Source: Pempheris klunzingeri (Eukaryota > Chordata > Actinopteri > Acropomatiformes > Pempheridae). Taken from it: a stretch of DNA of 64,000 nucleotides. Made by a program: the position numbers and the translations under genes. The notes beneath the pieces are model-generated. The model did no database searches. It saw only the letters and a program-made list of their open reading frames with translations, and was not told the origin of the DNA. Position 1 is the stretch's first letter, and each line of letters opens with the position of its first letter. Below are positions 34,293 through 64,000 of this stretch, piece by piece. The stretch lies in the NCBI RefSeq assembly GCF_042242105.1, contig NC_092022.1, positions 26,590,001 to 26,654,000 on the forward strand, read 5' to 3'.

Positions 34293-34797
34293 TTGAATGC
34301 TTGGAGTAAAAATGCATTTAGTGCAACAAACACAGGTGTTTTCAGTTAGTGTAACGTTACAGGATCAGAGCTACAGATAAATATTCAGACATTAACCGAC
34401 TGCACTGGTTCGTCTGGGTCAAACTATGAAGCCACCTTCACGTGTTTCACACAGTTTGTCACACGTGAATCAATTTAAAGCAAAATCTAGATCAGATCAA
34501 GATTCCTGCGGCCACGTCTTCATGCTTTCACGCCAAGAAATCACACACAAGTTAAAAAACTCCTCCTTGATTATGATGTTCAGTCGATCTGAGAGCTGAA
34601 GATGAGTCCAAACACAGAAAACAAACATTAAAATCAAAAGTGAAATTGTTGTATACAGAGAGACAGTGGAGATATATGTACTTCAATTTAAAAGTGAAGA
34701 AAGAAGCTGCTGTATTTGTTATATAATTATCCCTTAATCCCTGATTAAAACTCAATATTTGTATGGATCCAGTAACAGAACTGTTCTGTAGGCGTCG

Positions 34798-36742
34798 TCA
34801 TGCAGGAGCTTCGTCATCTTCAGACTCAGTCAGTCTGTGTATGAGGATCTGTTTGGAAAAAAAGGTAAAAATTGTCAAACTTCCCATAAAAATCTACAGA
34901 AAACATGAACGTACGTGTTCAATATCAAACAACTGATGTATTAAAGGTGTAATAATATAATTATATACAGCTTCACTATTACAGAGGAACATCTGTGCTT
35001 GTTTGAATATTATACGTATATTAAAGAGTTCTTAGTGCTCAGAGATCAGAGACAGACAGACAGTCAGACAGACAGTCAGACAGACAGACAGACAGACAGA
35101 TGTGTTCACCTCTGTTTCCTCTGACTGTTGTTTCTTCCTCCTGCAAAAAGTTTCATATAATCAGTCAAAGTTTCATTTTCAGAAAGAAAACATGAAAAGG
35201 ATCAAAATAGTAGATGTTTAGAGTGAATGTTGTAGTTACCCCTGCTGCCTCGTCTGTAGCATCTCCTGTAGCTCCATCTGTTGCCCCTCCTGTTGCCCCT
35301 CCTGTTGCTCCGCCTGTTGCCCCTCCTGTTGCCCCTCCTGTTGCTCCTCCTGTTGCCCCTCCTGTTGCCCCTCCTGTTGCTCCTCCTGTTGCCCCTCCTG
35401 TTGAAAGAATTTCACATTACACTCAGCAGCTTGCAGACAAAAGGGATAAAAGAGATAAAAGTTTTTTTCACACAGACTGTTTCCTCTCCACCAAAAGTCT
35501 GTTAAACTGTTAATTTAATGAGGTAGGAAATATGTTTGTTTAGAGTATAGAGTTACCCCCCAACCCCCCCAGACAGACTTCTGTATCCTCACCAAACAGC
35601 ATAAGAGCCAACAGGTGTTGATTCCTTACCTTTTTCTTGTCTTTCCTTTCAATCAGTTCCTCAACAGCATCAAAACACTTTTCCCATGATTCACCACATA
35701 AGTTTTTCTTTGCTGCTTCTGTCAACTTCTCTTTTGCTTCTGTTGTCAAAATGTCTTTCACGACATCGTCCTCGTCCAAAATCACTCTGTGAAGTGCAAA
35801 GTTTCTGTTCCAACATGAGCCGTTACAGCATTTTCTCCATTCAAATGACGTCATTAAGGAAACCACAACAAGGGCACAGAAGAGAACAATGAAGCCGATA
35901 ACCTGGAGGAGAGGAGCCAGAGTTGGTTATAATGTCACCACAGAGTTCATTGTCTCCAGATAACAGAGGCTGATAACAGGATACAGATACAATATGATGT
36001 GAGCATTAACCATAACCACTGCAACCAGTGGAAGAACCGACTGACAGGACGTGTTTGAAGCAAGAAAAACTCACCATGGACTCGTTCTTCAGTTCAGTGA
36101 TGGTCGACTGTTCCTCTGCTGTGATGTTGTTCTGGTCTTTGCAGGCCAAATGTCTCTGTTGTTCAGACTGATCGTTCTGACAGCAAACGTACCAATCTCC
36201 ATCGATCAACACGAACACAGGCCACAGCAGGCCAACGAAAACCGCCTTGATGATGTGACACAATAAAACACAGGAAAATGTGCCCAGTCTTTTCCTGCAG
36301 CTGATGACTTCAGTCCAACATCGTTTCAAACATGTGCACACTTCAGTCCCACCTTCTGTGGCAGATGTACTCACTGCTTCAGTCCCACCTTCTGTGGCAG
36401 ATGTACTCACTGCTTCAGTCCCACCTTGTCCCAAACATGGACAGCCACATGTGTATTTCCAGGCTCTTTGAAATATCTTGTCCGTCCAAAGATGCAAAAC
36501 AAGCAAAATAAAAAACGGCATCACCATGTACATGTAGCAGGAATGAGGTTGTGGTTTGCAGGAGCACTTAAAATCCCTGTCAAGCACAACATTGTGAATA
36601 AAAATCACAATGATGGCGATGAAGGTGCTGAGCTGACTGAGAACGAATTGTGGAAAGATGTTCTTCATCTTTGGTGCAAACTTGGCATCTGCTGACAGCT
36701 GCTGCATGTAAGCTCTTGATATACTTTCAGGAAACCGCTCAA
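34798..36742 (-). CDS. CALHM-like channel gene, copy 1
   Basis: CALHM proteins form large-pore, voltage- and calcium-gated channels in the plasma membrane. Exons: A 36742-36075, B 35902-35630, C 35397-35240, D 35140-35110, E 34848-34798; all GT-AG and in phase. The likely start is the Met at 36668 (368 aa), because the upstream in-frame Met at 36707 is not conserved in copies 5 and 6. Exon A gives TM1, a first extracellular loop with CSC, TM2, a cytosolic loop with two 12-residue TEAVSTSATEGG repeats, and TM3 ending LIDGDWYVCC. A Cys-containing second loop follows, with NIT and NES sequons. Exon B gives TM4 (VIGFIVLFCALVVVSL) and a helical CTD ending WEKCFDAVEEL, as in CALHMs. The intron before TM4 fits the family. 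Exon C encodes QQE(E/G) repeats; exon E encodes TESEDDEAPA. Exon B ends ERKDKKK instead of ETPAGQNQ. No 5' exon was identified. Family assignment is by pattern only. Confidence 0.8.
35050..35100. repeat. GACA/GTCA microsatellite in intron D-E
   Basis: Tandem GACA with GTCA variants. The same run recurs at the equivalent intron position of the other copies (39401-39463, 43303-43340, 48500-48540, 56686-56730; a shorter one at 53147-53172), with a different length in each. Confidence 0.9.
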
Positions 36743-36809
36743 CTGTGGATGGAACAAAAGCGTTACACAACAGTTATAAAACAGTTTCTCTTTTTCTCTC
36801 TCTCTCACT

Positions 36810-37549: not shown

Positions 37550-37586
<37 letters not shown>

Positions 37587-39140
37587 TGGCCTGGTGTTTA
37601 TACACTAATCATAGTCTCACCCATCCATTAACGAGGTTAACGAGGAGCGGTAGATGATGAGGAGGTACTGGGGGACACTAATGAAGCATCAGCTCAGAAT
37701 GTCAGTTAATCATTGGTTCCCAAAGTGAAGTGGTACATCAGATGAGGAGCTACCAGAAGCATCTCCACCATCAGGGTGGAGGTTTTACTGCCTGCAGGGG
37801 GCGACTGAAACACACTGATCAGGTTTTACCCCATCAGACGAGGATCTTCTGCTCTCTGGTTTCTGCTTCTTCTGGTGGTTTTGGTGCTAAGTGACGACAG
37901 GATTAAATTGTGCACTTGTGATTTATGGATTTACGGTTTGTTGTTTTTGCTCAGTTTTCTTTAAGGCTTTCAGAAGTTACAACAGAGAGTCGGATTCAAA
38001 CCCGGACCTGGAACATTTAGACCTCACAGCCGAGGCTGATGGGAAACACATCAGTTTATGAAGGAGCTAAACTCACAGTGAAACTGTTAGCATGCTAACT
38101 TTAGCTCCCAGCACTCAGTGGCGACTTGTCAGATGTAGAACAGAGAAAATGAAGATGGTTTCTGCAGATATTGATGTTGACCTTTAACCCTTGAACACTA
38201 ACCTAACAGTTAGTAACACCATCACTAACGTCAGGTATATTTTACCTGATAGAAAAATACTTCTCATCAAAACATATTAAAGTACAACAATACACGGCAA
38301 ACTGAAGAACTCTTCTTTTACTTTCCTTATACGTCTCATAAAACAGAAAAAAGGTATCATGGGGGAACCCTATAAAAAAAGACAAAGGTCTCCAGACATT
38401 CTTCAACTCCCCCCTGAATAAACAAACAAACCCAAAATATCCCCACAAAATCTACAGTTACACTGCCTGACATTAATGTTACCCTTTGATTTACATTTGC
38501 GTCGTAACTTGATTAAAGTGAATAATCTAAATAATAAAATGCCGTACAGAGTTCTGAAAGCTGCTCTGATACAGGAAATATGAAGCACAGCGTTTCCTTT
38601 TAACTGTCGGTACAAAGAATAAAAGCTGCCACAGCAAACTGGAGCCTGCGTCCGACGTGAAGCAACAACTTCAGATTAAAGCTCAAGAGAAAACGTATCA
38701 GCAGCATGTTGTGTTACAGGATCAGAGCTACAGATAAATATTCAGACATTAACCGGCTGCACTGGTTCGTCTGGATCAAACTATGAAGCCACCTTCACGT
38801 GTTTCACACAGTTTGTCACACGTGCGTCAATTTAAAGCTAAATCTAGATCAGATCAAGATTCCTGCGGCCACGTCTTCATGCTTTCACGCCAACAAATCA
38901 CACACATTAAAAAATCCTGATTATGATGTTCAGTCGATCTGAGAGCTGAAGATGAGTCCAAACACAGAAAACAAACATGAAAATCAAAAGTGAAATTGTT
39001 GTATACAGAGAGACAGTGGAGATATATGTACTTCAATTTAAAAGTGAAGAAAGAAGCTGCTGTATTTGTTATACAATAATCCCTTACTCCCTGATTAAAG
39101 CTCAATATTTGTATTCATCCAGTAACAGAACTGTTCTGTA
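37310..39140. other. intergenic module between copies 1 and 2
   Basis: Contains a TG run (37552-37583) and, at 38240-38700, a module that recurs downstream of copies 3-6 (42180-42600, 47340-47810, 52205-52675, 55550-55990) with very high identity. The part next to 39148 is the 3' UTR and flank of copy 2. Open frames shared by these modules follow from their identity and are not evidence of coding. Confidence 0.7.
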
Positions 39141-39147
39141 GGTGTCG

Positions 39148-41136
39148 TCATGCAGGAGCTTCGTCATCTTCAGACTCAGTCCCTCTGTGTATGAGGTTCT
39201 GTTTGGAAAAAAAGGTAAAAATTGTCAAACTTCCCATAAAAATCTACAGAAAACATGAACGTACGTGTTCAATATCAAACAACTGATGTATTAAAGGAGT
39301 GATAATATAATTATATACAGCTTCACTATTACAGAGGAACATCTGTGCTTGTTTGAATATTATACGTATATTAAAGAGTTCTTAGTGCTCAGAGATCAGA
39401 GACAGACAGACAGTCAGACAGACAGTCAGACAGACAGTCAGACAGACAGTCAGACAGACAGATGTGTTCACCTCTTTTTCCTCTGACTGTTGTTTCATCC
39501 TCCTGCAAAAAGTTTCATATAATCAGTCAAAGTTTCATTTTCAGAAAGAAAACATGAAAAGGATCAAAATAGTAGATGTTTAGAGTGAATGTTGTAGTTA
39601 CTCCTCCTGTGGCATCTTCTGTAGCTCCATCTGCTGCTTGTCTGTTGCTCCATCCTGTTGAAAGAATTTCACGCTCACACACTCAGCAGCTTATTATTTA
39701 TTATTACACTTTATTGTCCCCAGGGGGGAAATTCTTTTTCACAGCACTGATTCTGCTTGACAAACTGACAGTCAGACGGTAGACATGACAACACAACAAC
39801 AGCAGACTTAACAACACTTCACAAGACAACACTTCCCACTAACTTTACACATAGAAAAACACCAACAAAGCAGACAGCCATAGTCACACTCAGCGGGGTC
39901 TGTTGTTCACGACTGTTATGACAGCATGAATTAGGCTTGCAGACAAAAGGGATAAAAGAGGTCTGGTCACTAACTGTTTCCTCTCCACCAAAAGTCTGTG
40001 TCTGTGTACTGGAAATATGTTTGTTTTGAGTATAGACAGACTTCTGTATCCTCACCAAACAGCATAAGAGCAAACAGGTATTGATTCCTTACCTGGTTTT
40101 GTCCTGCAGGAGTTTCACTCAGTTCCTCAACAACATCAAAACACTTTTCCCACGATTTACCATGTAGTTTATCCTTTACTACTTTTGTCAACTTCTCTTT
40201 TGCTTTTTTTATCAAAATGTCTTTCACGACATCGTCCTCGTCCAAAATCACTTTGTAAAGTGCCAAGTTTCCGTCCCAACATGAGCCGTTGCAGCATTTT
40301 CTCCATTCAAATGACGTCACTAAGGAAACCACAACAAGGGAACAGAAGAAAAGACCGAGGCCGATAACCTGGAGGAGAGGAGCCAGAGTTGGTTATAATG
40401 TCACCACAGAGTTCATTGTCTCCAGATAACAGAGGCTGATAACAGGATACAGATACAATATGATGTGAGCATTAACCATAACCACTGCAACCAGTGGAAG
40501 AACCGACTGACAGGACGTGTTTGAAGCAAGAAAAACTCACCATGGACTCGTTCTTCAGTTCAGTGATGGTCGACTGTTCCTCTGCTGTGATGTTGTTCTT
40601 GTCTTTGCAGGCCAAATGTCTCTGTTGTTCAGACTGATCGTTCTGACAGCAAACGTACCAATCTCCATCGATCAACACGAACACAGGCCACAGCATGCCA
40701 ACGAAAACCGCCTTGAAGATGCGACACAATAAAACACAGGAAAATGTGTCCAGTCTTTTCCTGCAGCGGATGACTTCAGTCCCACCTTGTCTCGAACATG
40801 TACACACTTCAGTCCAACATTGTTTCGAACATGTACAGCTACATGTGTATTTCCAGGCTCTTTGAAATGTCTTGTCCGTCCAAAGATGCAAAACAAGTAA
40901 AATAAAACCTGGCATCCACATGTACATGTAGCAGGAATGAGGTTGTGGTTTGCAGGAGCACTGAAAATCCTTGTCAAGCACAACATTGTGAATAAAAATC
41001 ACAATGATGGCGATGTAGGTGCTGAGCTGACTGAGAACGAATGCTTGAAGGATGTTCTTCATCTTTGGTGCAAACTTGGCATCTGCTGACAGCTGCTGCA
41101 TGTAAGCTCTTGATATACTTTCAGGAAACCGCTCAA
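39148..41136 (-). CDS. CALHM-like channel gene, copy 2 (short form)
   Basis: Exons: A 41136-40541, B 40368-40093, C 39654-39602, D 39502-39472, E 39198-39148; all phases agree. From the Met at 41062 it is about 310 aa, the shortest intact copy. Topology is as in copy 1: CSC loop, TM3 ending LIDGDWYVCC, NIT and NES sequons, TM4 VIGLGLFFCSLVVVSLV, CTD with WEKCFDVVEEL. The TM2-TM3 loop has no 12-residue array, only Cys-rich half-units such as CTCSKQCWTEV. Exon C is 53 nt and has no minisatellite array; it reads KQQMELQKMPQE. The copy therefore looks closest to the unexpanded ancestral form. Intron B-C holds an inserted retroelement tail (39692-39935). The reading frame is open upstream into 'MKLLCNAFVPS', so a longer N-terminus is possible. 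Confidence 0.8.
39692..39935 (-). mobile_element. retroelement tail inserted in intron B-C of copy 2
   Basis: Compared with copy 1, about 240 bp interrupts 'actcagcagctt / gcagacaaaagg'. It begins with ATT-rich sequence and 'actttattgtcccc', the reverse complement of a fish retroelement 3' tail. A 'ctt' is present at both edges, possibly part of a short target duplication. It is absent from copies 1, 3, 4 and 6. Confidence 0.65.
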
Positions 41137-41650: not shown

Positions 41651-43078
41651 TTGAGGAGATTGGAGCCAGCTTGCAAGTTATAACAAAGTTTAATCTTACA
41701 TGTAAGAGGAGCGTTTAACAGTGCAACAACATCATGGAGGTTACAGAGTAAAAGGCTCAACCAGTGAGCAGGTACAGTTGGTTTTTATAATGGGAGTTGT
41801 GGGTGTAGTTCTCACACATCGTGAGATCATCTACTGGCGTTAGAACTTCTTCTTGTCCTTGTAGATATGAGGCTTCACACCGTTGCAGAGCACACCCTCG
41901 ATTGCCACTCTGTCTGGCAATTCGTGAGCATGTCCTTGGATGGCAATTCTCATAACAAAGATGGTTTCTGCAAATATTCACCAGCTGAGCAGGCAAAATA
42001 TCGATGCAGGAGCCGTCACAGCGGAGTGCTGATTCACAGGAAAGATGGAAACAACAATAATGTTTCTCACAGAATTGAAGCACAGATGTTGACCTTTAAC
42101 CCTTGAACATTAACCTAACAGTTAGTAACACCATCACTAACGTCGGGTCTATTTTACCTGATACTTCTCATCAAAACATTAAAGTACAACAATACACGGC
42201 AAACTGAAGAACTCTTCTTTTACTTTCCTTATACGTCTCATAAAACAGAAAAAAGGTATCATGGGGGAACCCTATAAAAAAAACACAAAGGTCTCCAGAC
42301 ATTCTTCAACTCCCCCCTGAATAAACAAACAAACCCAAAATATCCCCACAAAATCTACAGTTACACTGCCTGACATTAATGTTACCCTTTGATTTACATT
42401 TGCGCCGTAACTTGATAAAAGTGAAAAATCTAAATAATAAAATGCAGTACAGAGTTCTGAAAGCTGCTCTGATACAGGAAATATGAAGCACAGCGTTTCC
42501 TTTTAACTGTCGGTACAAAGAATAAAAGATGCCACAGCAAACTGGAGCCTGCGTCCGACGTGAAGCAACAACTTCAGATTAAAGCTCAAGAGAAAACGTA
42601 TCAGCAGCATGTTGTGTTACAGGATCAGAGCTACAGATAAATATTCAGACATTAACCGGCTGCACTGGTTCGTCTGGATCAAACTATGAAGCCACCTTCA
42701 CGTGTTTCACACAGTTTGTCACACGTGCGTCAATTTAAAGCAAAATCTAGATCAGATCAAGATTCCTGCGGCCACGTCTTCATGCTTTCACGCCAACAAA
42801 TCACACACATTAAAAAATCCTGATTATGATGTTCAGTCGATCTGAGAGCTGAAGATGAGTCCAAACACAGAAAACAAACATGAAAATCAAAAGTGAAATT
42901 GTTGTATACAGAGAGACAGTGGAGATATATGTACTTCAATTTAAAAGTGAAGAAAGAAGCTGCTGTATTTGTTATACAATTATCCCTTAATCCCTGATTA
43001 AAGCTCAATATTTGTATTGATCCAGTAACAGAACTGTTCTGTAGGTGTCGTCATGCAGGAGCTTCGTCACCTTCAGAC

Positions 43079-45305
43079 TCAGTCAGTTGGGTTTAAGAGG
43101 TTCTGTTTGGAAAAAAAGGAGAAATCGTCAAACTTCCCATAAAAATCTACAGAAAACATGAACGTACATGTTCATTATTAAACAACTGATGTATTAAAGG
43201 AGTGATAATATAATTATATACAGCTTCACTATTACAGAGGAACATCTGTGCTTGTTTGAATATTATACGTATATTAAAGAGTTCTTAGTGCTCAGAGATC
43301 AGAGACAGACAGACAGTCAGACAGACAGTCAGACAGACAGATGTGTTCACCTCTGTTTCCTCTGACTGTTGCCCCTCCTGTTGCTCCTCCTGTTGCTCCG
43401 CCTGTTGCCCCTCCTGTTGCCCCTCCTGTTGCTCCTCCTGTTGCTCCTCCTGTTGCTCCGCCTGTTGCTCCTCCTGTTGTCCCGCCTGTTGCCCCTCCTA
43501 TTGTCCTGCCTGTTGCTCCGCCTGTTGCCCCTCCTGTTGCTCCTCCTGTTGCTCCTCCTGTTGCTCCGCCTGTTGCACCGCCTGTTGCTCCTCCTGTTGC
43601 CCCGCCTGTTGCTCCGCCTGTTGCACCGCCTGTTGCTCCTCCTGTTGCTCCTCCTGTTGTCCTGCCTGTTGCTCCGCCTGTTGCTCCTCCTGTTGCTCCT
43701 CCTGTTGCCCCGCCTGTTGCTCCGCCTGTTGCTCCTCCTGTTGCTCCTCCTGTTGTCCTGCCTGTTGCTCCTCCTGTTGCTCCGCCTGTTGCTCCTCCTG
43801 TTGCCCCTCCTGTTGCTCCTCCTGTTGCCCCTCCTGTTGCCCCATCCTGTTGCCCCTCCTGTTGCTCCTCCTGTTGCTCCTCCTGTTGTCCTGCCTGTTG
43901 CTCCTCCTGTTGCTCCGCCTGTTGCCCCTCCTGTTGCTCCTCCTGTTGCTCCTCCTGTTGCTCCTCCTGTTGCTCCTCCTGTTGCCCCATCCTGTTGAAA
44001 GAATTTCACATTACACTCAGCAGCTTGCAGACAAAAGGGATAAAAGAGATAAAAGTTTTTTTCACACAGACTGTTTCCTCTCCACCAAACGTCTGTTAAA
44101 CTGTTAATTTAATGAGGTAGGAAATATGTTTGTTTAGAGTATAGAGTTACCCCCCCCAACCCCCCCAGACAGACTTCTGTATCCTCACCAAACAGCATAA
44201 GAGCCAACAGGTGTTGATTCCTTACCTGGTTTTGTCCTGCAGGAGTTTCAATCAGTTCCTCAACAGCATCAAAACACTTTTCCCACGATTCACCACATAA
44301 GTTTTTCTTTGCTGCTTCTGTCAACTTCTCTTTTGCTTCTGTTGTCAAAATGTCTTTCACGACATCGTCCTCGTCCAAAATCACTCTGTGAAGTGCAAAG
44401 TTTCTGTTCCAACATGAGCCGTTACAGCATTTTCTCCATTCAAATGACATCACTAAGGAAACCAGAAAAAGGAAACCGAGGAGAACACCGAGGCCGCAAC
44501 GCTGGAGGAGAGGAGCCAGAGTTGGTTATAATGTCACCACAGAGTTCATTGTCTCCAGATAACAGAGGCTGATAACAGGATACAGATACAATATGATGTG
44601 AGCATTAACCATAACCACTGCAACCAGTGGAAGAACCGACTGACAGGACGTGTTTGAAGCAAGAAAAACTCACCATGGACTCGTTCTTCAGTTCAGTGAT
44701 GGTCGACTGTTCCTCTGCTGTGATGTTGTTCTGGTCTTTGCAGGCCAAATGTCTCTGTTGTTCAGACTGATCGTTCTGACAGCAAACGTACCAATCTCCA
44801 TCGATCAACACGAACACAGGCCACAGCAGGCCAACGAAAACCGCCTTGAAGATGCGACACAATAAAACACAGGGAAATGTGTCCAGTCTTTCCCTGCAGC
44901 TGATGAATTCAGTCCAACATTCTGTGGCAGATGTACTCACTACTTGAGTCCCACCTTGCCTCGAACATCTACACAGTTCAGTCCAACATTGTTTCGAATA
45001 TGAACAGGTACATGTGTATTTCCAGGCTCTTTGAAATATCTTGTCTGTCCAAAGATGCAAAACAAGCAAAATAAAAAACGGCATCACCATGTACATGTTG
45101 CAGGAAACAGGTTGTGGTTTGCAGGAGCACTTAAAATCCTTGTCAAGCACAACATTGTGAATAAAAATCACAATGATGGCCATGTAGGTGCTGAGCTGAC
45201 TGAGAGAGAATTGTGGAAAGATGTTCTTCATCTTTGGTGCAAACTTGGCATCTGCTGACAGCTGCTGCATGTAAGCTCTTGATATACTTTCAGGAAAACG
45301 CTCGA
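43079..45305 (-). CDS. CALHM-like channel gene, copy 3, with giant repeat exon
   Basis: Exons: A 45305-44674, B 44501-44226, fused C+D 43991-43351 (641 nt), E from 43102. From the Met at 45231 the predicted product is about 494 aa. TM1-TM3 and the sequons match copy 1. The TM2-TM3 loop has two degenerate 12-residue units. TM4 begins RCGLGVLLGFLFLVSL, unlike the VIG of the other copies. Exons C and D are joined without the intervening intron and hold about 50 copies of the 12-bp repeat. Reading starts in the Ala-Thr-Gly-Gly frame; a 13-bp unit near 43842-43854 then shifts it to Ser/Gly-Asn-Arg-Arg. The exon is 3n+2 where the family needs 3n, so the acidic tail is lost and translation stops within a few codons of exon E. 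It may be a decaying gene or a new C-terminus. Confidence 0.65.
43369..43991. repeat. 12-bp minisatellite, about 50 units, in exon C of copy 3
   Basis: Units are CCTCCTGTTGCT, CCTCCTGTTGCC and CCGCCTGTTGCT variants on the plus strand. Smaller arrays occupy exon C of copies 1 (35280-35397), 4 (48700-48990) and 6 (56885-57042). Because units are triplet multiples, all six frames stay open, giving long artefact frames on the plus strand. Confidence 0.95.
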
Positions 45306-45622: not shown

Positions 45623-45991
45623 AAGTGGACGTGGGCGAGAGACGATAAACTGTCTCCATTTATGGTGAAACTGATTGTTTTTGTATTTAGTTTTTTATTT
45701 TGCTGCCAATTCCGAGTGAAAACTAATACACAGAATCACACATGTGCAGACTGAAGAGGTGTTACGTGGCATTTGTGAACACGAGAAACCTTTTTAAGAC
45801 AAAGAGGAACAAAGGAAAGAAAGAAAGAAAACTTCCAGCAACGCGGGACGACTTTGCAAAGTGTAGAAATCACAGACACGACACTAACTGCTGTTTCAAA
45901 TGTGTCCACTGTTCAGTTCCAGATACGTGTGACTGAATGTTTGGTGCATTTGCAGACACACTGTGATCTGGAAGCTGTGATGCACATGTAC

Positions 45992-46710
45992 ATCCGTCCG
46001 TCCGTCCATCCATCCATCCATTATCTTCCACTTATCCGAGGTTGGGTCGCGGTGGCAACAGGTCAAGCAGGGCACTGCAGACGCCCTTCTCCCGTGCAGC
46101 GCTTTCCAGCTCACCCCGGGGGATCCCGAGGCGTTCCCAGGCCAGATGAGAGATTTAATCCCTCCAGTCGGTTCTGGGTCTGCCCCGGGGTCTCCTCCCA
46201 GAGCGACATGCCCAGAAAACCTCCAAGGGGAGGCGCCCAGGAGGCGTCCTGACCAGATGCCTGAACCACCTCAACTGGCTCCTTTCGATGTGAAGGAGCA
46301 GCGGCTTTACTCCGAGCTCCTCCCAGATGTCCGAGCTCCTCACCCTTAGAGCTCCTCACCCTCAGAGCTCCTCACCCTTAGAGCTCCTCACCCTGTTTCT
46401 AAGGTTGAGCCCAGACACCCTACGGAGGAAACTCACTTCAGCCGCTTGTATCCGCACTCTCGTTCTTTTGGTCATGACCCTACGACGCCGCACCAATCCG
46501 CCTGTCATCTCACGCTCCATTTTACCTTCACTGAGAACAAGACCCCAAGATACTTAAACTCCCCCACTTGGTGCAGCAACTCACTCCCAACCCAAAGGGG
46601 GCAATCCACCTTTTCTCGGCAGAGAACCACGGCCTCAGACTTCGAGGTGCTGACCCTCCTGAGTGCTTCAAACTGGACGCTTTCCTCGGCTGCGCCTTGA
46701 GATCAGAATG
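45992..46710 (-). mobile_element. RT-LINE 3' fragment upstream of copy 3
   Basis: Minus-strand translation gives IERSQLRWFRHLVR and GRRPRGRPRTDWRD, the C-terminal end of the reverse-transcriptase ORF of a widespread fish non-LTR retrotransposon. It ends in GGAT repeats (seen as ccatccatcc at 46008 on the plus strand). A small GAGCTCCTCACCCTTA array has expanded inside it (46315-46400). Confidence 0.8.
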
Positions 46711-48274
46711 TCTGACTTTCTGTACAAGCGGCTGCTGGTTGGGTAACGAATCCGTCACTGAGCGGCAAAACAAACGGATCAGTTAATCATTGGTTCCTGT
46801 TTTAGTGCGTCCCAAAGTGAAGTGGTACATCAGATGAGGAGCTGCCAGAAGCATCTCCACCATCAGGGTGGAGGTTTTACCGCCTGCAGAGGGCGACTGA
46901 AACACAGTGATCAGGTTCTACCCCATCAGACGAGGATCTTCTGGTCTCTGCTTTCTGCTTCTTCTGGTGGTTTTGGTGCTAAGTGACAACAGGATTAAAT
47001 TGTGCACTTGTGATTTATGGATTCACGGTTTGTATTTATTGTTGTTTTTGCTCAGTTTTCTTTAAGACTTTCAGAAGTTACAACAGAGAGTCGGATTCAA
47101 ACCCGGACCTGGAACATTTAGACCTCACAGCCGAGGCTGATGGGAAACACATCAGTTTATGAAGGAGCTAAACTCACAGTGAAACTGTTAGCATGCTAAC
47201 TTTAGCTCCCAGCACTCAGTGGAGACTTGTCAGATGTAGAACAGAGAAAATGAAGATGGTTTCTGCAGATATTGATGTTGACCTTTAACCCTTGAACACT
47301 AACCTAACAGTTAGTAACACCATCACTAACGTCAGGTATATTTTACCTGATAGAAAAATACTTCTCATCAAAACATATTAAAGTACAACAATACACGGCA
47401 AACTGAAGAACTCTTCTTTTACTTTCCTTATACGTCTCATAAAACAGAAAAAAGGTATCATGGGGGAACCCTATAAAAAAAGACAAAGGTCTCCAGACAC
47501 TCTTCAACTCCCCCCTGAATAAACAAACAAACCCAAAATATCCCCACAAAATCTACAGTTACACTGCCTGACATTAATGTTACCCTTTGATTTACATTTG
47601 CGTTGTAACTTGATAAAAGTGAAAAATCTAAATAATAAAATGCCGTACAGAGTTCTGAAAGCTGCTCTGATACAGGAAATATGAAGCACAGCGTTTCCTT
47701 TTAACTGTCGGTACAAAGAATAAAAGCTGCCACAGCAAACTGGAGCCTGCGTCCGACGTGAAGCAACAACTTCAGATTAAAGCTCAAGAGAAAACGTATC
47801 AGCAGCATGTTGTGTTACAGGATCAGAGCTACAGATAAATATTCAGACATTAACCGGCTGCACTGGTTCGTCTGGATCAAACTATGAAGCCACCTTCACG
47901 TGTTTCACACAGTTTGTCACACGTGCGTCAATTTAAAGCTAAATCTAGATCAGATCAAGATTCCTGCGGCCACGTCTTCATGCTTTCACGCCAACAAATC
48001 ACACACATTAAAAAATCCTGATTATGATGTTCAGTCGATCTGAGAGCTGAAGATGAGTCCAAACACAGAAAACAAACATGAAAATCAAAAGTGAAATTGT
48101 TGTATACAGAGACAGTGGAGATATATGTACTTCAATTTAAAAGTGAAGAAAGAAGCTGCTGTATTTGTTATACAATTATCCCTTACTCCCTGATTAAAGC
48201 TCAATATTTGTATTGATCCAGTAACAGAACTGTTCTGTAGGCGTCGTCATGCAGGAGCTTCATCACCTTCAGAC

Positions 48275-50235
48275 TCAGTCAGTTGGGTTTAAGAGGTTCT
48301 GTTTGGAAAAAAAGGAGAAATCGTCAAACTCCCCATAAAAATCTACAGAAAACATGAACGTACGTGTTCAATATCAAACAACTGATGTATTAAAGGAGTG
48401 ATAATATAATTATATACAGCTTCACTATTACAGAGGAACATCTGTGCTTGTTTGAATATTATACGTATATTAAAGAGTTCTTAGTGCTCAGAGATCAGAG
48501 ACAGACAGACAGTCAGACAGACAGTCAGACAGACAGACGTGTTCACCTCTGCTTCCTCTGACTGTTGTTTCTTCCTCCTGCAAAGAGTTTCATATAATCA
48601 GTCAAAGTTTAATTTTCAGAAAGAAAACATGAAAAGGATCAAAATAGTAGATGTTTAGAGTGAATGTTGTAGTTACTCCTGTAGCTCCATCTGTTGCACA
48701 ACTGTTGCTCCTCCTGTTGCTCCGCCTGTTGCCCTGCCTGTTGCCCCTCCTGTTGCTCCTCCTGTTGCTCCTCCTGTTGCTCCTCCTGGTGCTCCTCCTG
48801 TTGCTCCTCCTGTTGCTCCTCCTGTAGCTCCACCTGTTGCCCCTCCTCTTGCCCCGCCTGTTGCCCCTCCTGTTGCTCCTCCTGTTGCTCCTCCTGTTGC
48901 CCCTCCTGTTGCTCCGCCTGTTGCCCCTCCTGTTGCCCCTCCTGTTGCCCCTCCTGTTGCTCCTCCTGTTGCTCCTCCTGTTGCCCCATCCTGTTGAAAG
49001 AATTTCACATTACACTCAGCAGCTTGCAGACAAAAGGGATAAAAGAGATAAAAGTTTTTTTCACACAGACTGTTTCCTCTCCACCAAACGTCTGTTAAAC
49101 TGTTAATTTAATGAGGTAGGAAATATGTTTGTTTAGAGTATAGAGTTACCCCCCCCAACCCCCCCAGACAGACTTCTGTATCCTCACCAAACAGCATAAG
49201 AGCCAACAGGTGTTGATTCCTTACCTGGTTTTGTCCTGCAGGAGTTTCAATCAGTTCCTCAACAGCATCAAAACACTTTTCCCATGATTCACCACATAAG
49301 TTTTTCTTTGCTGCTTCTGTCAACTTCTCTTTTGCTTCTGTTGTCAAAATGTCTTTCACTACATCGTCCTCGTCCAAAATCACTCTGTAAAGTGCAAAGT
49401 TTCCGTTCCAACATGAGCCGTTGCAGCATTTTCTCCATTCAAATGACATCACTAAGGAAACCACAACAAGGACACAGAAGAGAACACTGAGGCCAATAAC
49501 CTGGAGGAGAGGAGCCAGAGTTGGTTATAATGTCACCACAGAGTTCATTGTCTCCAGATAACAGAGGCTGATAACAGGATACAGATACAATATGATGTGA
49601 GCATTAACCATAACCACTGCAACCAGTGGAAGAACCGACTGACAGGACGTGTTTGAAGCAAGAAAAACTCACCATGGACTCGTTCTTCAGTTCAGTGATG
49701 GTCGACTGTTCCTCTGCTGTGATGTTGTTCTTGTCTTTGCAGGCCAAATGTCTCTGTTGTTCAGACTGATCGTTCTGACAGCAAACGTACCAATCTCCAT
49801 CGATGAACACGAACACAGGCCACAGCAGGCCAACGAAAGCCGCCTTGATGATGTGACACAATAAAACACAGGAAAATGTGCCCAGTCTTTTCCTGCAGCG
49901 GATGACTTCAGTCCCACCTTGTCTCGAACATGTACAGGTACATGTGTATTTCCAGGCTCTTTGAAATATCTTGTCCGTCCAGAGATGCAAAACAAGCAAA
50001 ATACAACCCGGCATCACCGTGTACATGTAGCAGGAAACAGCTTGTGGTTTGCAGGAGCACTGAAAATCCTCGTCAAGTACAACATTGTAAATAAAAATCA
50101 CAATGATGGCGATGAAGGGGCTGAGCTTTTTGAGAGAGAATTGTGGAAAGATGTTGTTCATCTTTGGTGCAAACTTGGCATCTGCTGACAGCTGCTGCAT
50201 GTAAGCTCTTGATATACTTTCAGGAAAACGCTCGA
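48275..50235 (-). CDS. CALHM-like channel gene, copy 4 (Ala-Thr-Gly-Gly repeat form)
   Basis: Exons: A 50235-49673, B 49500-49225, C 48990-48677, D 48577-48547, E 48298-48275; all phases agree. From the Met at 50161 the product is about 377 aa. The start context reads MNN where other copies have MKN. TM1-TM4, the CSC loop and both sequons are present, and the TM2-TM3 loop is short. Exon C starts with a 13-base first unit and so is read as about 22 Ala-Thr-Gly-Gly repeats. A late GTTGTG word returns it to the family frame (VVQQMELQE) before the donor, so the exon keeps the family phase (3n+2). Exon E carries the TTAAACCCAACTGACTGA variant shared with copy 3, ending NLLNPTD and dropping the acidic tail. 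Expression is untested. Confidence 0.78.
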
Positions 50236-50299
50236 CTGTGGATGGAGCAAAAGTGTTACACAACAGTTTCTCTTTTTCTCTCTCCCCCTCTCCACCCAG

Positions 50300-51560: not shown

Positions 51561-52707
51561 TGAGATCAGAATGTCTGACTTTCTGTACGAGCAGCTGCTG
51601 GTTGGGTAACGAATCCGTCACTGAGCAGCAAAACAAACGGATCAGTTAATCATTGGTTCCTGTTTTAGTGCGTCCCAAAGTGAAGTGGTACATCAGATGA
51701 GGAGCTACCAGAAGCATCTCCACCATCAGGGTGGAGGTTTTACTGCCTGCAGAGGGCGACTGAAACACAGTGATCAGGTTTTACCCCCTCAGACGAGGGT
51801 CTTCTGGTCTCTGGTTTCTGCTTCCTCTGGTGGTTTTGGTGCTAAGTGACGACAGGATTAAATTGTGCACTTGTGATTTATGGATTTAAGGTTTGTATTT
51901 ATTGTTGTTTTTGCTCAGTTTTCTTTAAGACTTTCAGAAGTTACAACAGAGAGTCGGATTCAAACCCGGACCTGGAACATTTAGACCTCACAGCCGAGGC
52001 TGATGGGAAACACATCAGTTTATGAAGGAGCTAAACTCACAGTGAAACTGTTAGCATGCTAACTTTAGCTCCCAGCACTCAGTGGCGACTTGTCAGATGT
52101 AGAACAGAGAAAATGAAGATGGTTTCTGCAGATATTGATGTTGACCTTTAACCCTTGAACACTAACCTAACAGTTAGTAACACCATCACTAACGTCAGGT
52201 ATATTTTACCTGATAGAAAAATACTTCTCATCAAAACATATTAAAGTACAACAATACACGGCAAACTGAAGAACTCTTCTTTTACTTTCCTTATACGTCT
52301 CATAAAACAGAAAAAAGGTATCATGGGGGAACCCTATAAAAAAAGACAAAGGTCTCCAGACACTCTTCAACTCCCCCCTGAATAAACAAACAAACCCAAA
52401 ATATCCCCACAAAATCTACAGTTACACTGCCTGACATTAATGTTACCCTTTGATTTACATTTGCGTTGTAACTTGATAAAAGTGAAAAATCTAAATAATA
52501 AAATGCAGTACAGAGTTCTGAAAGCTGCTCTGATACAGGAAATATGAAGCACAGCGTTTCCTTTTAACTGTCGGTACAAAGAATAAAAGCTGCCACAGCA
52601 AACTGGAGCCTGCGTCCGACGTGAAGCAACAACTTCAGATTAAAGCTCAAGAGAAAACGTATCAGCAGCATGTTGTGCTGCAGAAAAAGGCGTCCGTCAT
52701 CCCGTCT

Positions 52708-54531
52708 TCACTCCAAGTGTGACGAAGAGGTTCCAGGCATAAAGGCATCGCTCTGTTTGGAGAAAACACAGATTCAAGAGGAAGTGAGTTTCTTTCATGA
52801 AAACATCATAATTATTATCCTACTAATAATAAAATATCAGAGCTGATCCTGAAATGCATCCTGCAGGAGAACATGTGGCCAGAAGTATGTAGACACCTGA
52901 ACCCTCCCTTCAGGTAGAACATCATCATCCGAACTCCTCAACACACTTCAGTTCATCCAAACTCTGCTCACACTCCCTCCACAGCCTCCACTGACCCTCG
53001 TCCCACAACGGATCCAATTTAAAAACCTGCTCTTCGCTCACAAAGCTCCACAACCGCAACCCTTTGAGTTCCTACCAACACTTCAGTCACATTCGGCTCC
53101 TGATACAAGATGGAACAGCGACCTCCAGTGGAGTTATGTGCAGACACACAGGCAGACAGACAGACAGACAGATGTGTTCACCTCTGTTTCCTCTGACTGT
53201 TGTTTCTTCCTCCTGCAAAGAGTTTCATAAAATCAGTCAAAGTTTCATTTACAGAAAGAAAACATGAAAAGGATCAAAATAGATGAGTAATGTTGTAGTT
53301 ACTCCTCCTGTGTCATCTTCTGTAGCTCCATATCTTGCTGCTCCTGTTGCTCATCCTGTTGAAAGGTTGTGCATTTTTAGTTTAGACTGTTTCCTCTCCA
53401 CCAAAAGTCTAATGAGGTAGGAAATATGTTTGTTTAGAGTATAGAGTTACCCCCAACCCCCCCAGACAGACTTCTGTATCCTCACCAAACAGCATAAGAG
53501 CCAACAGGTGTTGATTCCTTACCTGGTTTTGTCCTGCAGGAGTTTCAATCAGTTCCTCAGCAGCATCAAAACACTTTTCCCACAATTTACCATGTAGTTT
53601 TTCCTTTACTATTTTTGTCAACTTCTCTTTTGCTTCTGTTGTCAAAATGTCTTTCACTACATCGTCCTCGTCCAAAATCACTTTGTAAAGTGCAAAGTTT
53701 CTGTTGCAACATGAATCCTTACAGCATTTTCTCCATTCAAATGACATCACTAAGGAAACCACAACAAGGACACAGAAGAGAACACTGAGGCCGATAACCT
53801 GGAGGAGAGGAGCAAGAGTTGGTTATAATGTCACCACAGAGTTCATTGTCTCCAGATAACAGAGGCTGATAACAGGATACAGATACAATATGATGTGAGC
53901 ATTAACCATAACCACTGCAACCAGTGGAAGAACCGACTGACAGGACGTGTTTGAAGCAAGAAAAACTCACCATGGACTCGTTCTTCAGTTCAGTGATGGT
54001 CGACTGTTCCTCTGCTGTGATGTTGTTCTTGTCTTTGCAGGCCAAATGTCTCTGTTGTTCAGACTGATCGTTCTGACAGCAAACATACCAATCTCCATCG
54101 ATCAACACGAACACAGGCCACAGCAGGCCAACGAAAACCGCCTTGAAGATGTGACACAATAAAACACAGGAAAATGTGTCCAGTCTTTTCCTGCAGCTGA
54201 TGACTTCAGTCCCACCTTGTCTCGAACATGAACAGCTACATGTGTATTTCCAGGCTCTTTGAAATATCTTGTCCGTCCAAAGATGCAAAACAAGCAAAAT
54301 AAAAGCCGGCATCCACATGTACATGTAGCAGGAATGAGGTTGTGGTTTGCAGGAGCACTGAAAATCCTTGTCAAGCACAACATTGTGAATAAAAATCACA
54401 ATGATGGCAATGAAGGTGCTGAGCTGACTGAGAGAATGCTCGAAGGATGTTCTTCATCTTTGGTGCAAACTTGGCATCTGCTGACAGCTGCTGCACGTAA
54501 GGTCTTGATATACTTTCAGGAAACCGCTCGA
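52708..54531 (-). pseudogene. CALHM-like gene, copy 5, frameshifted in TM1
   Basis: Exons: A 54531-53971, B 53798-53523, C 53355-53303, D 53212-53182, and a different last exon 52752-52708. Relative to copy 2, two bases are missing near 54434 ('ctgagagaatgctcg' against 'ctgagaacgaatgcttg'). This breaks the frame between the N-terminal helix and TM1, and the upstream frame then stops soon after. Downstream the CSC loop, TM2, TM3, sequons, TM4 and CTD are open. Exon C is the short, array-free kind (ending MELQKMTQE). The usual last exon and part of the 3' flank are gone; an unrelated CCAAACAG acceptor with 14 in-phase codons (SDAFMPGTSSSHLE) takes its place. An internal Met after the deletion (54399) would lack most of TM1, so I call it a pseudogene. 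Confidence 0.7.
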
Positions 54532-55020: not shown

Positions 55021-56431
55021 TTCTTTAGGTTGAGGAGATTGGAGCCAGCTTGCAAGTTATAACAAAGTTTAATCTTACATGTAAGAGAAGCGTTTAACAG
55101 TGCAACAACATCATAGAGGTTACAGAGTAAAAGGCTCAACCAGTGAGCATGTACAGTTGGTTTTTATAATGGCCGTTGTGGGTGTAGTTCTCACACATCG
55201 TGTGATCATCTACTGGCGTGAGAACTTCTTCTTGTCCTTGTAGATATGAGGCTTCACACCGTTGCAGAGCACACCCTCGATTGCCACTCTGTCTGGCAAT
55301 TCGTGAGCATGTCCTTGGATGGCAATTCTCATAACAAAGATGGTTTCTGCAGATATTCACCAGCTGAGCAGGCAAAATATCGATGCAGGAGCCGTCACAG
55401 CGGAGTGCTGATTCACAGGAAAGATGGAAACAACAATAATGTTTCTCACAGAATTGAAGCACAGATGTTGACCTTTAACCCTTGAACATTAACCTAACAG
55501 TTAGTAACACCATCACTAACGTCGGGTCTATTTTACCTGATACTTCTCATCAAAACATTAAAGTACAACAATACACGGCAAACTGAAGAACTCTTCTTTT
55601 ACTTTCCTTATACAATGTCTCATAAAACAGAAAAAAGGTATCATGGGGGAACCCTATAAAAAAAGACAAAGGTCTCCAGACACTCTTCAACTCCCCCCTG
55701 AATAAACAAACAAACCCAAAATATCCCCACAAAATCTACAGTTACACTGCCTGACATTAATGTTACCCTTTGATTTACATTTGCATCGTAACTTGATTAA
55801 AGTGAATAATCTAAATAATAAAATGCAGTACAGAGTTCTGAAAGCTGCTCTGATACAGGAAATATGAAGCACAGCGTTTCCTTTTAACTGTCGGTACAAA
55901 GAATAAAAGCTGCCACAGCAAACTGGAGCCTGCGTCCGACGTGAAGCAACAACTTCAGATTAAAGCTCAAGAGAAAACGTATCAGCAGCATGTTGTGTTA
56001 CAGGATCAGAGCTACAGATAAATATTCAGACATTAACCGACTGCACTGGTTCGTCTGGATCAAACTATGAAGCCACCTTCACATGTTTCACACAGTTTGT
56101 CACACGTGTGTCAATTTAAAGCTAAATCTAGATCAGATCAAGATTCCTGCGGCCACGTCTTCATGCTTTCACGCCAACAAATCACACACATTAAAAAATC
56201 CTGATTATGATGTTCAGTCGATCTGAGAGCTGAAGATGAGTCCAAACACAGAAAACAAACATGAAAATCAAAAGTGAAATTGTTGTATACAGAGAGACAG
56301 TGGAGATATATGTACTTCAATTTAAAATTGAAGAAAGAAGCTGCTGTATTTGTTATACAATTATCCCTTACTCCCTGATTAAAGCTCAATATTTGTATTG
56401 ATCCAGTAACAGAACTGTTCTGTAGGTGTCG

Positions 56432-56716: not shown

Positions 56717-59107
56717 GTCAGACAGACAGATGTGTTCACCTCTGTTTCCTCTGACTGTTGTTTCTTCCTCCTGCAAAAAGTTTCATATAATCAGTCAAAG
56801 TTTAATTTTCAGAAAGAAAACATGAAAAGGATCAAAATAGTAGATGTTTAGAGTGAATGTTGTAGTTACTCCTCCTGTGGCTCCGCCTGTTGTCCCGCCT
56901 GTTGCCCTGCCTGTTGCCCTGCCTGTTGCTCCACCTGTTGCCCCTCCTCTTGCCCCGCCTGTTGCCCCGCCTGTTGCCCCTCCTGTTGCTCCTCCTGTTG
57001 CCCCTCCTGTTGCTCCTCCTGTTGCCCCTCCTGTTGCTCCTCCTGTTGAAAGAATTTCACATTACACTCAGCAGCTTGCAGACAAAAGGGATAAAAGAGA
57101 TAAAAGTTTTTTTCACACAGACTGTTTCCTCTCCACCAAAAGTCTGTTAAACTGTTAATTTAATGAGGTAGGAAATATGTTTGTTTAGAGTATAGAGTTA
57201 CCCCCCAACCCCCCCAGACAGACTTCTGTATCCTCACCAAACAGCATAAGAGCCAACAGGTGTTGATTCCTTACCTGGTTTTGTCCTGCAGGAGTTTCAA
57301 TCAGTTCCTCAACAGCATCAAAACACTCTTCCCACGATTTATCACGTAAGTTTTCATTTACTACTTCTGTCAACTTCTCTTTTGCTTTTTTTCTCAAAAT
57401 GCCTTTCACTACATTGTCCTCGTCCAAAATCACTTTGTAAAGTGCAAAGTTTCCGTTCCAACATGAGCCGTTGCAGCATTTTCTCCATTCAAATGACGTC
57501 ATTAAGGAAACCACAACAAGGACACCGAAGAGAACACTGAGGCCGATAACCTGGAGGAGAGGAGCCAGAGTCGGTTATAATGTCACCACAGAGTTCATTG
57601 TCTCCAGATAACAGAGGCTGATAACAGGATGCAGATACAATATGATGTGAGCATTAACCATAACCACTGCAACCAGTGGAAGAACCGACTGACAGGACGT
57701 GTTTGAAGCAAGAAAAACTCACCATGGACTTGTTCTTCAGTTCAGTGATGGTCAACTGTTCCTCTGCTGTGATGTTGTTCTTGTCTTTGCAGGCCAAATG
57801 TCTCTGTTGTTCAGACTGATCGTTCTGACAGCAAACGTACCAATCTCCATTGATGAACACGAACACAGGCCACAGCAGGCCAACGAAAATCGACTTGAAG
57901 ATGCGACAGAATAAAACACAGGAAAATGTGTCCAGTCTTTTCCTGCAGCGGATGACTTCAGTCCCACCTTGTTTCAAACATGTGCACACTTCAGTCCAAC
58001 ATCGTTTCAAACATGTGCACACTTCAGTGACACCTTCTGTGGCAGATGTACTCACTGCTTCAGTGACACCTTCTGTGGCAGATGTACTCACTGCTTCAGT
58101 GACACCTTCTGTGGCAGATGTACTCACTGCTTCAGTGACACCTTCTGTGGCAGATGTACTCACTACTTCAGTGACACCTTCTGTGGCAGATGTACTCACT
58201 GCTTCAGTGACACCTTCTGTGGCAGATGTACTCACTGCTTCAGTGACACCTTCTGTGGCAGATGTACTCACTGCTTCAGTGACACCTTCTGTGGCAGATG
58301 TACTCACTGCTTCAGTGACACCTTCTGTGGCAGATGTACTCACTGCTTCAGTGACACCTTCTGTGGCAGATGTACTCACTGCTTCAGTGACACCTTCTGT
58401 GGCAGATGTACTCACTGCTTCAGTGACACCTTCTGTGGCAGATGTACTCACTACTTCAGTGACACCTTCTGTGGCAGATGTACTCACTACTTCAGTGACA
58501 CCTTCTGTGGCAGATGTACTCACTGCTTCAGTGACACCTTCTGTGGCAGATGTACTCACTGCTTCAGTCCCACCTTCTGTGGCAGATGTACTCACTGCTT
58601 CAGTCCCACCTTCTGTGGCAGATGTACTCACTGCTTCAGTGACACCTTCTGTGGCAGATGTACTCACTGCTTCAGTGACACCTTCTGTGGCAGATGTACT
58701 CACTGCTTCAGTGACACCTTCTGTGGCAGATGTACTCACTACTTCAGTGACACCTTCTGTGGCAGATGTACTCACTGCTTCAGTCCCACCTTGTTTCGAA
58801 CATGTACAGCTACATGTGTATTTCCAGGCTCTTTGAAATATCTTGTCCGTCCAAAGATGCAAAACAAGCAAAATAAAAGCCGGCATCCACATGTACATGT
58901 AGCAGGAATCAGCTTGTGGTTTGCAGGAGCACTGAAAATCCTTATCAAGCACAACATTGTGAATAAAAATCACAATGATGGCGATGTAGGTGCTGAGCTG
59001 TTTGAGAAAGAATTCTGGAAAGATGTTCTTCATCTTTGGTGCAAACTTGGCATCTGCTGACAGCTGCTGCACGTAAGGTCTTGATATACTTTCAGGAAAC
59101 CGCTCGA
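56432..59107 (-). CDS. CALHM-like channel gene, copy 6, with expanded TM2-TM3 loop
   Basis: Exons: A 59107-57723 (1385 nt), B 57550-57275, C 57042-56870, D 56770-56740, E 56482-56432; all phases agree. From the Met at 59033 the product is about 613 aa, roughly twice copy 2. TM1, CSC loop and TM2 are followed by 21 tandem copies of a 12-residue unit (consensus TEAVSTSATEGV, with A/V and V/G variants). Two Cys-rich units (TEVCTCLKRCW type) and the normal RKRLDTFS lead into TM3. In CALHM topology this loop is cytosolic. Exon C encodes about 14 QQE(E/G)-type repeats, later units QQAG; exon E has the acidic tail TESEDDEAPA. The second loop keeps NIT, and NES is changed to NKS, still a sequon. No stop or frameshift occurs in any exon, which argues for function, though near-identical repeats could simply be young. 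Confidence 0.78.
58023..58790 (-). repeat. 36-bp coding minisatellite, 21 units, in copy 6 exon A
   Basis: Perfect 36-bp period with few substitutions (GTGACA or GTCCCA, CTGC or CTAC). Two units of the same repeat exist in copy 1 (36340-36425) and one or two degenerate ones in copy 3. Plus-strand frames through it are open for the same arithmetic reason. There are no spacers between units. Confidence 0.97.
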
Positions 59108-59164
59108 CTGTGGATGGAACAAAAGTGTTACGCAACAAATACACAACAGTTTCTCTTTCTCTCT

Positions 59165-59669: not shown

Positions 59670-60600
59670 AGGGACATGCCCAGGAAACCTCTAAGGGGAG
59701 GCGTCCTTAACCTGGAGGAGAGGAGCCAGAGTTGGTTATAACGTCACCACAGAGTTCATTGTCTCCAGATAACAGAGGCTGATAACAGGATACAGATACA
59801 ATATGATGTGAGCATTAACCATAACCACTGCAACCAGTGGAAGAACCGACTGACAGGACGTGTTTGAAGCAAGAAAAACTCACCATGGACTCGTTCTTCA
59901 GTTCAGTGATGGTCGACTGTTCCTCTGCTGTGATGTTGTTCTTGCCTTTGCAGGCCAAATGTCTCTGTTGTTCAGACTGATCGTTCTGACAGCAAACGTA
60001 CCAATCTCCATCGATCAACACGGACACAGGCCACAGCAGGCCAACGAAAACCGACTTGAAGATGCGACAGAATAAAACACCGTATTCCTGCAGCTGCTGA
60101 CTTCAGTCCCACCTTGTGTCGAACATATACACACTTAATTCACACATTGTTTCGAACATGTACAGGTACATATGTATTTCCAGGCTCTTTGAAATATCTT
60201 GTCCATCCAGAGATGCAAAACAAGCAAAATAAAACCCGGCATCACCATGTACATGTAGCAGGAAACAGCTTGTGGTTTGCAGGAGCACTGAAAATCCTCG
60301 TCAAGCACAACATTGTAAATAAAAATCACTGTGCACCATCTTTCCCTGCAGCTGATGATCTACAGCTACATGTGTATTTCCAGGCTGTTTGAAATATCTT
60401 GTCCGTCCAAAGATGCAAAACAAGCAAAATAAAAATCTTGGTTGCAGGAACACTGAAAATCTTTGTTAAGAACAACATTGTAAATAAAAATCTCAAAGAT
60501 GGCGATGAAGGTGCTAAGCTGACTGAGAGCATATTGTGGAAAGATGTTCTTGATCTTTGGTGCCAATCTGCTGACAGCTGCTGCACGTACTCAAAACAGT
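59670..60600 (-). pseudogene. CALHM-like gene, copy 7, truncated by a LINE fragment
   Basis: The TM3/second-loop part (59884-60060) is well conserved, including DGDWYVCC, NIT and NES. The cytosolic loop then breaks into two out-of-frame TM1-TM2 modules in tandem (about 60130-60330 and 60360-60570), each with its own CSC or CSCN loop. On the exon B side only the acceptor and the first few bases remain. At about 59706 they join 'gacatgcccaggaaacctct', a piece of the RT-LINE, and reading through gives a stop after six codons. No TM4 or CTD follows. Confidence 0.8.
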
Positions 60601-62520: not shown

Positions 62521-62523
62521 GGG

Positions 62524-64000
62524 GAAACCGCTCGACTGTGGATGGAACAAAAGTGTTACACAACAAATACACAACAGTTTCTCTTTCTCTCTCTCCCTAA
62601 CCTCCCAGATCCTGGTTCTGTTAATGGGAAGTTCTTCCTGCCACTGTTTCCTAATATAATATCTGATGCTGCTCATGTGGAGATTCTTGAATCCTTAATG
62701 TTGAATTTCTGAATTGTTTGGTCTGAGCTGCTCTTTATGGAAAGAGTCTTGATAACGCTGTTATTAATTGGTGCTATATAAATAAAGATTGATTGATTGT
62801 CGACGTGGGCGAGAGATTGATTTATATCATACTGTCCCAGGATTAAATACACTGAAGTTATCTTTTGCCTTTAAAAACAACAGTATGGTAGCTTTATAGT
62901 ATTTGGTATGATTTTTTGATAAGACAGCTGATCGTGTCCAGTTACTCCATGATTTTCTCTTTAAGACTGCAGGCAGAAATGAAAAGGTTGGCTGAGGACA
63001 CCTTTCGTACAACAGCTTCTATAATATAAATCTCTTTTCTTTAAAAGCTACGGCACCAGTCAGTCAACTAAATAACTACACCTACAATATACTCACTAGG
63101 GACATGCCCAGGAAACCTCTAAGGGGAGGCGTCCTTAACCTGGAGGAGAGGAGCCAGAGTTGGTTATAACGTCACCACAGAGTTCATTGTCTCCAGATAA
63201 CAGAGGCTGATAACAGGATACAGATACAATATGATGTGAGCATTAACCATAACCACTGCAACCAGTGGAAGAACCGACTGACAGGACGTGTTTGAAGCAA
63301 GAAAAACTCACCATGGACTCGTTCTTCAGTTCAGTGATGGTCGACTGTTCCTCTGCTGTGATGTTGTTCTTGTCTTTGCAGGCCAAATGTCTCTGTTGTT
63401 CAGACTGATCGTTCTTACAGCAAACGTACCAATCTCCATCGATCAACACAGACACAGGCCACAGCAGGCCAACGAAAACCGACTTGAAGATGCGACAGAA
63501 TAAAACACCGTATTCCTGCAGCTGCTGACTTCAGTCCCACCTTGTGTCGAACATATACACACTTAATTCACACATTGTTTCGAACATGTACAGGTACATG
63601 TGTATTTCCAGGCTCTTTGAAATATCTTGTCCATCCAGAGATGCAAAACAAGCAAAATAAAACCCGGCATCACCATGTACATGTAGCAGGAAACAGCTTG
63701 TGGTTTGCAGGAGCACTGAAAATCCTCGTCAAGCACAACATTGTAAATAAAAATCACTGTGCACCATCTTTCCCTGCAGCTGATGATCTACAGCTACATG
63801 TGTATTTCCAGGCTGTTTGAAATATCTTGTCCGTCCAAAGATGCAAAACAAGCAAAATAAAAATCTTGGTTGCAGGAACACTGAAAATCTTTGTTAAGAA
63901 CAACATTGTAAATAAAAATCTCAAAGATGGCGATGAAGGTGCTAAGCTGACTGAGAGCATATTGTGGAAAGATGTTCTTGATCTTTGGTGCCAATCTGCT
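62524..64000. repeat. recent direct duplication of 59096-60572
   Basis: Every landmark in 59096-60572 recurs exactly 3428 bp further on, without a single net indel that I can see and with only scattered substitutions. The block includes the start of copy 6 exon A, the L2-type tail and the whole of pseudogene copy 7. The left join is at 'ttccctgggg/aaaccgctcg'; the right end lies beyond the window. Confidence 0.93.
63098..64000 (-). pseudogene. CALHM-like gene, copy 8 (duplicate of copy 7), runs off the window
   Basis: Same broken structure as copy 7: RT-LINE join at about 63134, TM3/second-loop part with donor at 63312, then two out-of-frame TM1-TM2 modules. It keeps every disabling change of copy 7, so the duplication happened after the gene had died. 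One visible difference is YVCCKND for YVCCQND. Confidence 0.8.

Follow-up and report, generated by a model that had tools for sequence, protein, structure and literature searches.

Tandem CALHM-like genes in Pempheris klunzingeri carry an excess of amino-acid differences among their copies

Described CALHM channels and their likeness to the array

In published abstracts, CALHM channels are described as passing ATP in taste cells, and CALHM6 as acting at the immune synapse. The excerpted text of PMC13183375 counts 13 CALHM-wide positions, amongst which are the cysteines of the CALHM2 disulphides C46=C130 and C48=C162 together with F44 (section 11), and others named as Y56, I61, P64 and W117. 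The mobile loop between TM2 and TM3 of CALHM4 is given as 12 residues in the excerpt of PMC7242029. In fishes, calhm5.2 appears in the excerpted stickleback work (PMC9596333), calhm2 in the excerpted trout work (PMC7573577), and section 18 of PMC10768655 infers a duplication of Ca_hom_mod for Danio rerio.

We analyzed a window of 64,000 nucleotides of the Pempheris klunzingeri genome holding a tandem array of eight units, for which CALHM2/4/5/6 (PF14798) are nearest in layout. As in CALHM, there are four hydrophobic segments (seen in the hydropathy of u4, as the first-pass annotation had predicted), an F-x-C-x-C motif after TM1, and a C-terminal helix following TM4 (low-confidence predicted helices). 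The four CALHM disulphide cysteines and the phenylalanine of the excerpted account were placed by eye in u4 at F33, C35, C37, C127 and C141, their pairing being predicted. Additionally, W114 lies 13 residues before C127, which by eye is the CALHM spacing (u4 numbering, excerpted positions), and Y45, eight residues past F-x-C-x-C, is found in five of six copies, with N in u3. By the same comparison with PMC13183375 positions, the I61 place holds M and the TM2 proline stands two residues early. The C-x-C of loop 1 was as annotated, and loop 2 carries its Cys and two N-x-S/T sequons in all five open copies. The W-x-KCF motif does lie in the cytosolic helix, with its wording corrected to W-E-[KE]-C-F and its presence limited to six of the eight units.

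Unlike the CALHM2 of the excerpt, in which the loop-2 cysteines stand 32 residues apart, the array has them 14 apart, i.e., with 18 residues fewer between them (by eye). The array also differs from CALHM in being too divergent for sequence matches to solved chains, in a minisatellite-bearing TM2-TM3 loop of 14 to 288 residues, and in its eight tandem units. The published fish calhm genes belong to the same family by name and include duplicated members, but in those sources, which give names and inferred events, a tandem array of this size and positive selection are absent. Likewise, among the matches listed from titles and abstract openings in the open literature, none described either a comparably large tandem array of CALHM genes or positive selection acting on one. 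Accelerated protein change among tandem copies is shared with snake venom genes, as far as the abstracts on these describe them. Venom proteins are secreted, whereas the array product is predicted to be a membrane channel, and its variation lies mostly in the membrane-spanning and cytosolic segments.

Organization of the array

A blastn search of the window with one unit as query returned eight copies of exon A and six of exon B, every one on the minus strand; the units are here named u1 to u8 by position (Table 1). The eight-unit array of the first-pass annotation stands insofar as the GDWYVCC core of exon A is present in all eight units; open genes number five. Its multi-exon layout holds for six units only, as u7 and u8 lack exon B, which encodes TM4 and the cytosolic helix. 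Unit-like matches extend from 35065 to the window end, which moves the array start from the 34358 first proposed, as the lowest such match ends at 35065. The spacing had been described correctly: ATG-to-ATG distances are 4.2-4.9 kb among u1 to u6, and core-to-core distances are 2.2 kb to u7 and 3.4 kb to u8.

Exon A runs from the ATG to the GTGAGT donor and encodes the N-terminus, TM1-TM3 and the extracellular loops. An upstream ATG start (MQQL) was rejected; the codon is GTG in u5 and u6. The intron was found just before TM4, where it had been placed, as a 172-bp, phase-0 GTGAGT...CTCCAG intron in u1 to u6, and it ends in CTCCTCCAG ahead of exon B in all six units having that exon.

Both exons are open in u1, u2, u3, u4 and u6. 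In u5, 2 nt are missing directly after the ATG and cause a frameshift near the start. Exon A of u7 is disrupted and partly duplicated and its exon B was not found, the sequence after the exon B acceptor being, we assume, LINE-like; u7 and u8 share 99.7% identity over 1273 bp. The u5 frameshift, the u7 disruption and the near-identical u8 make the birth and death of copies, which had been proposed earlier, directly visible.

Table 1. Positions of the array features in the window (minus strand where marked), with PF14798 scores
Feature	Position	Strand	Remark
u1 exon A, open (N-terminus, TM1-TM3, extracellular loops)	36075..36668	-	PF14798 27.5 bits (enclosing ORF 36006-36773)
u1 intron, 172 bp, GTGAGT..CTCCAG, phase 0	35903..36074	-	
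u1 exon B (TM4, cytosolic helices)	35630..35902	-	
u2 exon A, open	40541..41062	-	PF14798 29.4 bits
u2 exon B	40093..40368	-	
u3 exon A, open	44674..45231	-	PF14798 21.1 bits, below cut-off of 25
u3 exon B	44226..44501	-	
u4 exon A, open, shortest TM2-TM3 loop	49673..50161	-	PF14798 33.7 bits (enclosing ORF 49604-50344)
u4 exon B	49225..49500	-	
u5 exon A, frameshifted after ATG	53971..54457	-	open remainder 53971-54453; PF14798 45.9 bits, 5e-12
u5 exon B	53523..53798	-	
u6 exon A, open 437 codons, in-frame 36-bp minisatellite in TM2-TM3 loop	57723..59033	-	PF14798 31.2 bits
u6 coding minisatellite, 36-bp, 21.4 copies	58022..58792	-	VSTSATEGVTEA
u6 exon B	57275..57550	-	
u7, broken exon A with internal duplication	59885..60589	-	
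u8, near-identical to u7	63313..64000	-	reaches window end
90-codon open stretch, copies	38403-38675, 42306-42578, 47504-47776, 52367-52639, 55687-55959		

The TM2-TM3 loop, with boundaries set by hand, measures 14 residues in u4, 25 in u2, 37 in u3, 49 in u1 and 288 in u6. It is made largely of in-frame units of 33 bp and 36 bp, which look related and are Cys-rich or S/T-rich. In the u6 repeat, 3 of the 36 unit columns vary, and the splice-donor-like GTGAGTAC occurs 21 times, so that this loop may provide a series of alternative donors. In four units, exon B is followed by a second minisatellite, with a 12-bp period (35263-35403, 43366-43997, 48676-48996 and 56871-57048), preceded by the acceptor-like TTCTTTCAACAG and containing units with CAACAG-like steps. 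It may or may not belong to a further coding exon; its open frame would read GGAT or EEQQ repeats and differs between copies.

Beside the array, on the minus strand, lie ARL8-like and PTPN7-like exons (8252-8782 and 16611-18552). ARL8A and PTPN7 are adjacent in human, so that this flank appears to preserve a vertebrate gene order. The 90-codon open stretch upstream of five units varies at 7 of 273 sites, and in the one copy scanned no Pfam family exceeded its cut-off. Between units, at 50831-51416 and 45896-46270, there are what we take to be LINE-like tails, which may have helped unequal crossing-over. An isolated fragment at 62523-62816, between u7 and u8, consists of 5' flank and the first 38 bp of the exon A query and is possibly a displaced u7 start.

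Amino-acid change among the copies

Changes were counted in the five intact copies (u1, u2, u3, u4 and u6), taking each codon column once. This gave 90 nonsynonymous (N) against 13 synonymous (S) changes, i.e., an N share of 87%, compared with a neutral expectation of about 74%. The one-sided p for the N excess was 0.0008 with kappa at 2.46, 0.0015 with kappa at 2 and 7e-5 with kappa at 4, and adding u5 gave 98 N and 17 S (p 0.002). A purpose-written M0 codon model returned an omega of 2.82 for the five copies (p=7.6e-5 against omega 1) and of 2.30 for u1 to u6 (p 3.0e-4 against omega 1); the ratio from pairwise counting over u1 to u6 was only 1.68. Variable columns at codon positions 1, 2 and 3 numbered 46, 32 and 22 of 233 each, and the coding frame had an N share of 0.874, with the remaining five frames lying between 0.606 and 0.811. 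By segment, exon B held 51 N and 7 S, and TM1-TM2 held 24 N and 6 S, which is not significant alone. Since protein-changing differences exceed silent ones beyond the neutral expectation, selection seems, as judged from these codon comparisons, to drive the channel subunits apart. The excess is the strongest feature of the array and had no place in the first-pass annotation.

The exons were also set against the DNA around them. Across u1 to u6 the intron varies at 3 of 172 sites, and the three exon parts at 32/201, 16/225 and 63/273. Variability steps up at the ATG (4/75 to 13/60) and at the exon B acceptor (2/60 to 18/60), so these two boundaries are supported independently of transcripts; the exon A donor, with 3/60 in the closing bases of that exon, and the exon B donor (4/60 vs 2/56) show no comparable change. 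For whole-unit pairs among u1 to u5, noncoding divergence is 1.8-5.6% upstream, 4-9% downstream and 0-0.6% in the intron, with exon A at 2.5-7.9% and exon B at 5.5-12.5%. Because exon divergence overlaps the noncoding range, the exons exceed by far only the intron and a very conserved 550-bp intergenic block (14 of 534 sites variable). The search of 33000-64000 found no Rfam family at gathering threshold, which leaves the uniform intron without a known-RNA explanation.

The copies recombine, and variants are mixed between them, with 421 of 780 informative column pairs failing the four-gamete test. For this reason site-class tests were distrusted, and the M2a versus M1a comparison (2dl 39.9) was set aside. 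Such strong mixing lends some weight to an alternative that we regard as unlikely, namely that positive selection plays no part and that the N excess arose artefactually, through multi-base mutations or through conversion tracts brought in from diverged paralogues. In agreement with it, TM1-TM2 and exon B have silent divergences (0.066 and 0.065, respectively) far above that of the intron, and in the reverse-strand wrong-frame control of exon B the N share of 0.846 comes close to the coding value of 0.879. However, conversion by itself does not raise N over S, the column counts are independent of any tree, and in TM3-ECL2 alone the intact copies show 15 N changes and 0 S. In addition, overall exon dS (0.046) falls within the upstream noncoding range, and with silent divergence thus near background, it is the protein-changing rate that stands out.

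An improbable account is that of a decaying array, in which most copies would be untranscribed pseudogenes drifting neutrally with frames open only through youth. It draws on the broken u5, u7 and u8 and on a 3' end that is ill defined and minisatellite-bearing. Drift, however, predicts the lower N share given above, and 0 of 3000 neutral simulations reached the observed one. The loop length differences among open copies also stay in frame. Additionally, no stop interrupts the compared codons of u1 to u6, although 103 neutral changes should have produced about 5 (P=0.007); the argument is partly circular, as the five copies were chosen as intact.

Family affinity and possible roles of the variation

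The CALHM affinity first proposed was supported by PF14798 (Ca_hom_mod) matches, clean reversed controls and residue spacing against the CALHM positions in the excerpt of PMC13183375. The curated cut-off of this family is 25 bits and its profile length 252. All six exon A sequences tried matched, at 21.1 to 45.9 bits, five of them above the cut-off and the u5 open remainder best. When exons A and B were joined and scanned for u1 to u4, as suggested earlier, u1 (30.8 bits) and u4 (30.9) exceeded the cut-off, and u2 (24.6) and u3 (17.4) stayed under it. Exon B alone (u1 and u4) did not match PF14798, and none of three reversed-protein controls gave a CALHM match. A DUF697 match in u6 was distrusted, as it begins inside the repeat array.

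Structural comparisons added less. A PDB sequence search with profile A1 gave zero matches, and the full listings for joined u2, profile A2 and u5 held matches at E 0.74 or worse and no CALHM; the 60 of 133 matches listed for the u1 ORF were antibodies, whose alignments fell mostly within the repeat loop. AlphaFold models of the exons folded separately had pLDDT of 43.9 and 48.1, too poor to judge the fold, and the fold search was of low confidence. No relatives of the array were found in collections of viral contigs and of genome contigs other than animal genomes. That a four-TM protein from outside CALHM has the cysteine pattern alone in common is very improbable: the solved CALHMs are unmatched by sequence in the full PDB listings, and joined u2 and u3 score under the Pfam cut-off, but PF14798 alone exceeds its curated threshold in the exon A translations of u1, u2, u4 and u5, and joined u1 aligns over profile positions 21-237. 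On sequence grounds, a divergent CALHM subfamily is the most fitting description of the array.

Altogether, we consider it probable that these are tandem, divergent CALHM-family genes for large-pore subunits, shaped by recent duplication, mixing, copy loss and diversifying selection. Each intact gene would encode a four-TM subunit, and by family resemblance the subunits would most likely assemble into a large-pore ring releasing ATP or other solutes. Unequal crossing-over would create copies, and gene conversion would shuffle them and hold the intron uniform. Diversifying selection would retain differences in the exons, above all in the N-terminal stretch, TM4 and the cytosolic helices, and these differences may alter gating and the choice of co-assembling paralogues.

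With segment borders set by hand, and leaving aside the repeat loop and the initial 7 residues, variable residues make up 13 of 20 in TM4, 15 of 36 in the cytosolic helix (CTH), 12 of 24 in the tail after it and 5 of 9 in the N-terminal stretch, with 3 of 42 in ECL2. Section 12 of PMC11186629 places the subunit interface of CALHM2 and CALHM4 at TM2, TM4, the cytosolic helix and the parts following it. Grouped on that excerpt, interface residues are variable at 45 of 97 positions against 27 of 137 for the others (p=2.5e-5), a contrast that is confounded, since ECL2 lies next to the uniform intron and is nearly devoid of silent changes too, and since the N/S of exon B (51/7) is not clearly different from that of TM1-TM2 (24/6).

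We advance as a hypothesis, tentative and possible at best, that the copies are being driven apart at the surfaces of subunit assembly (TM4, the cytosolic helices and the N-terminal gate) with extracellular loop 2 held fixed. The array would then encode self-sorting or combinatorial rings, one copy having a 288-residue repeat-built cytosolic loop, and would be evolving in the manner of immune or reproductive recognition. An array with a gene-wide omega near 2.8 would amount to a natural mutagenesis of a large-pore channel. From it one could learn which of the channel's surfaces tolerate change, and whether mixed rings are favoured or shunned by the paralogues; a role in conflict or in sensing is suggested.
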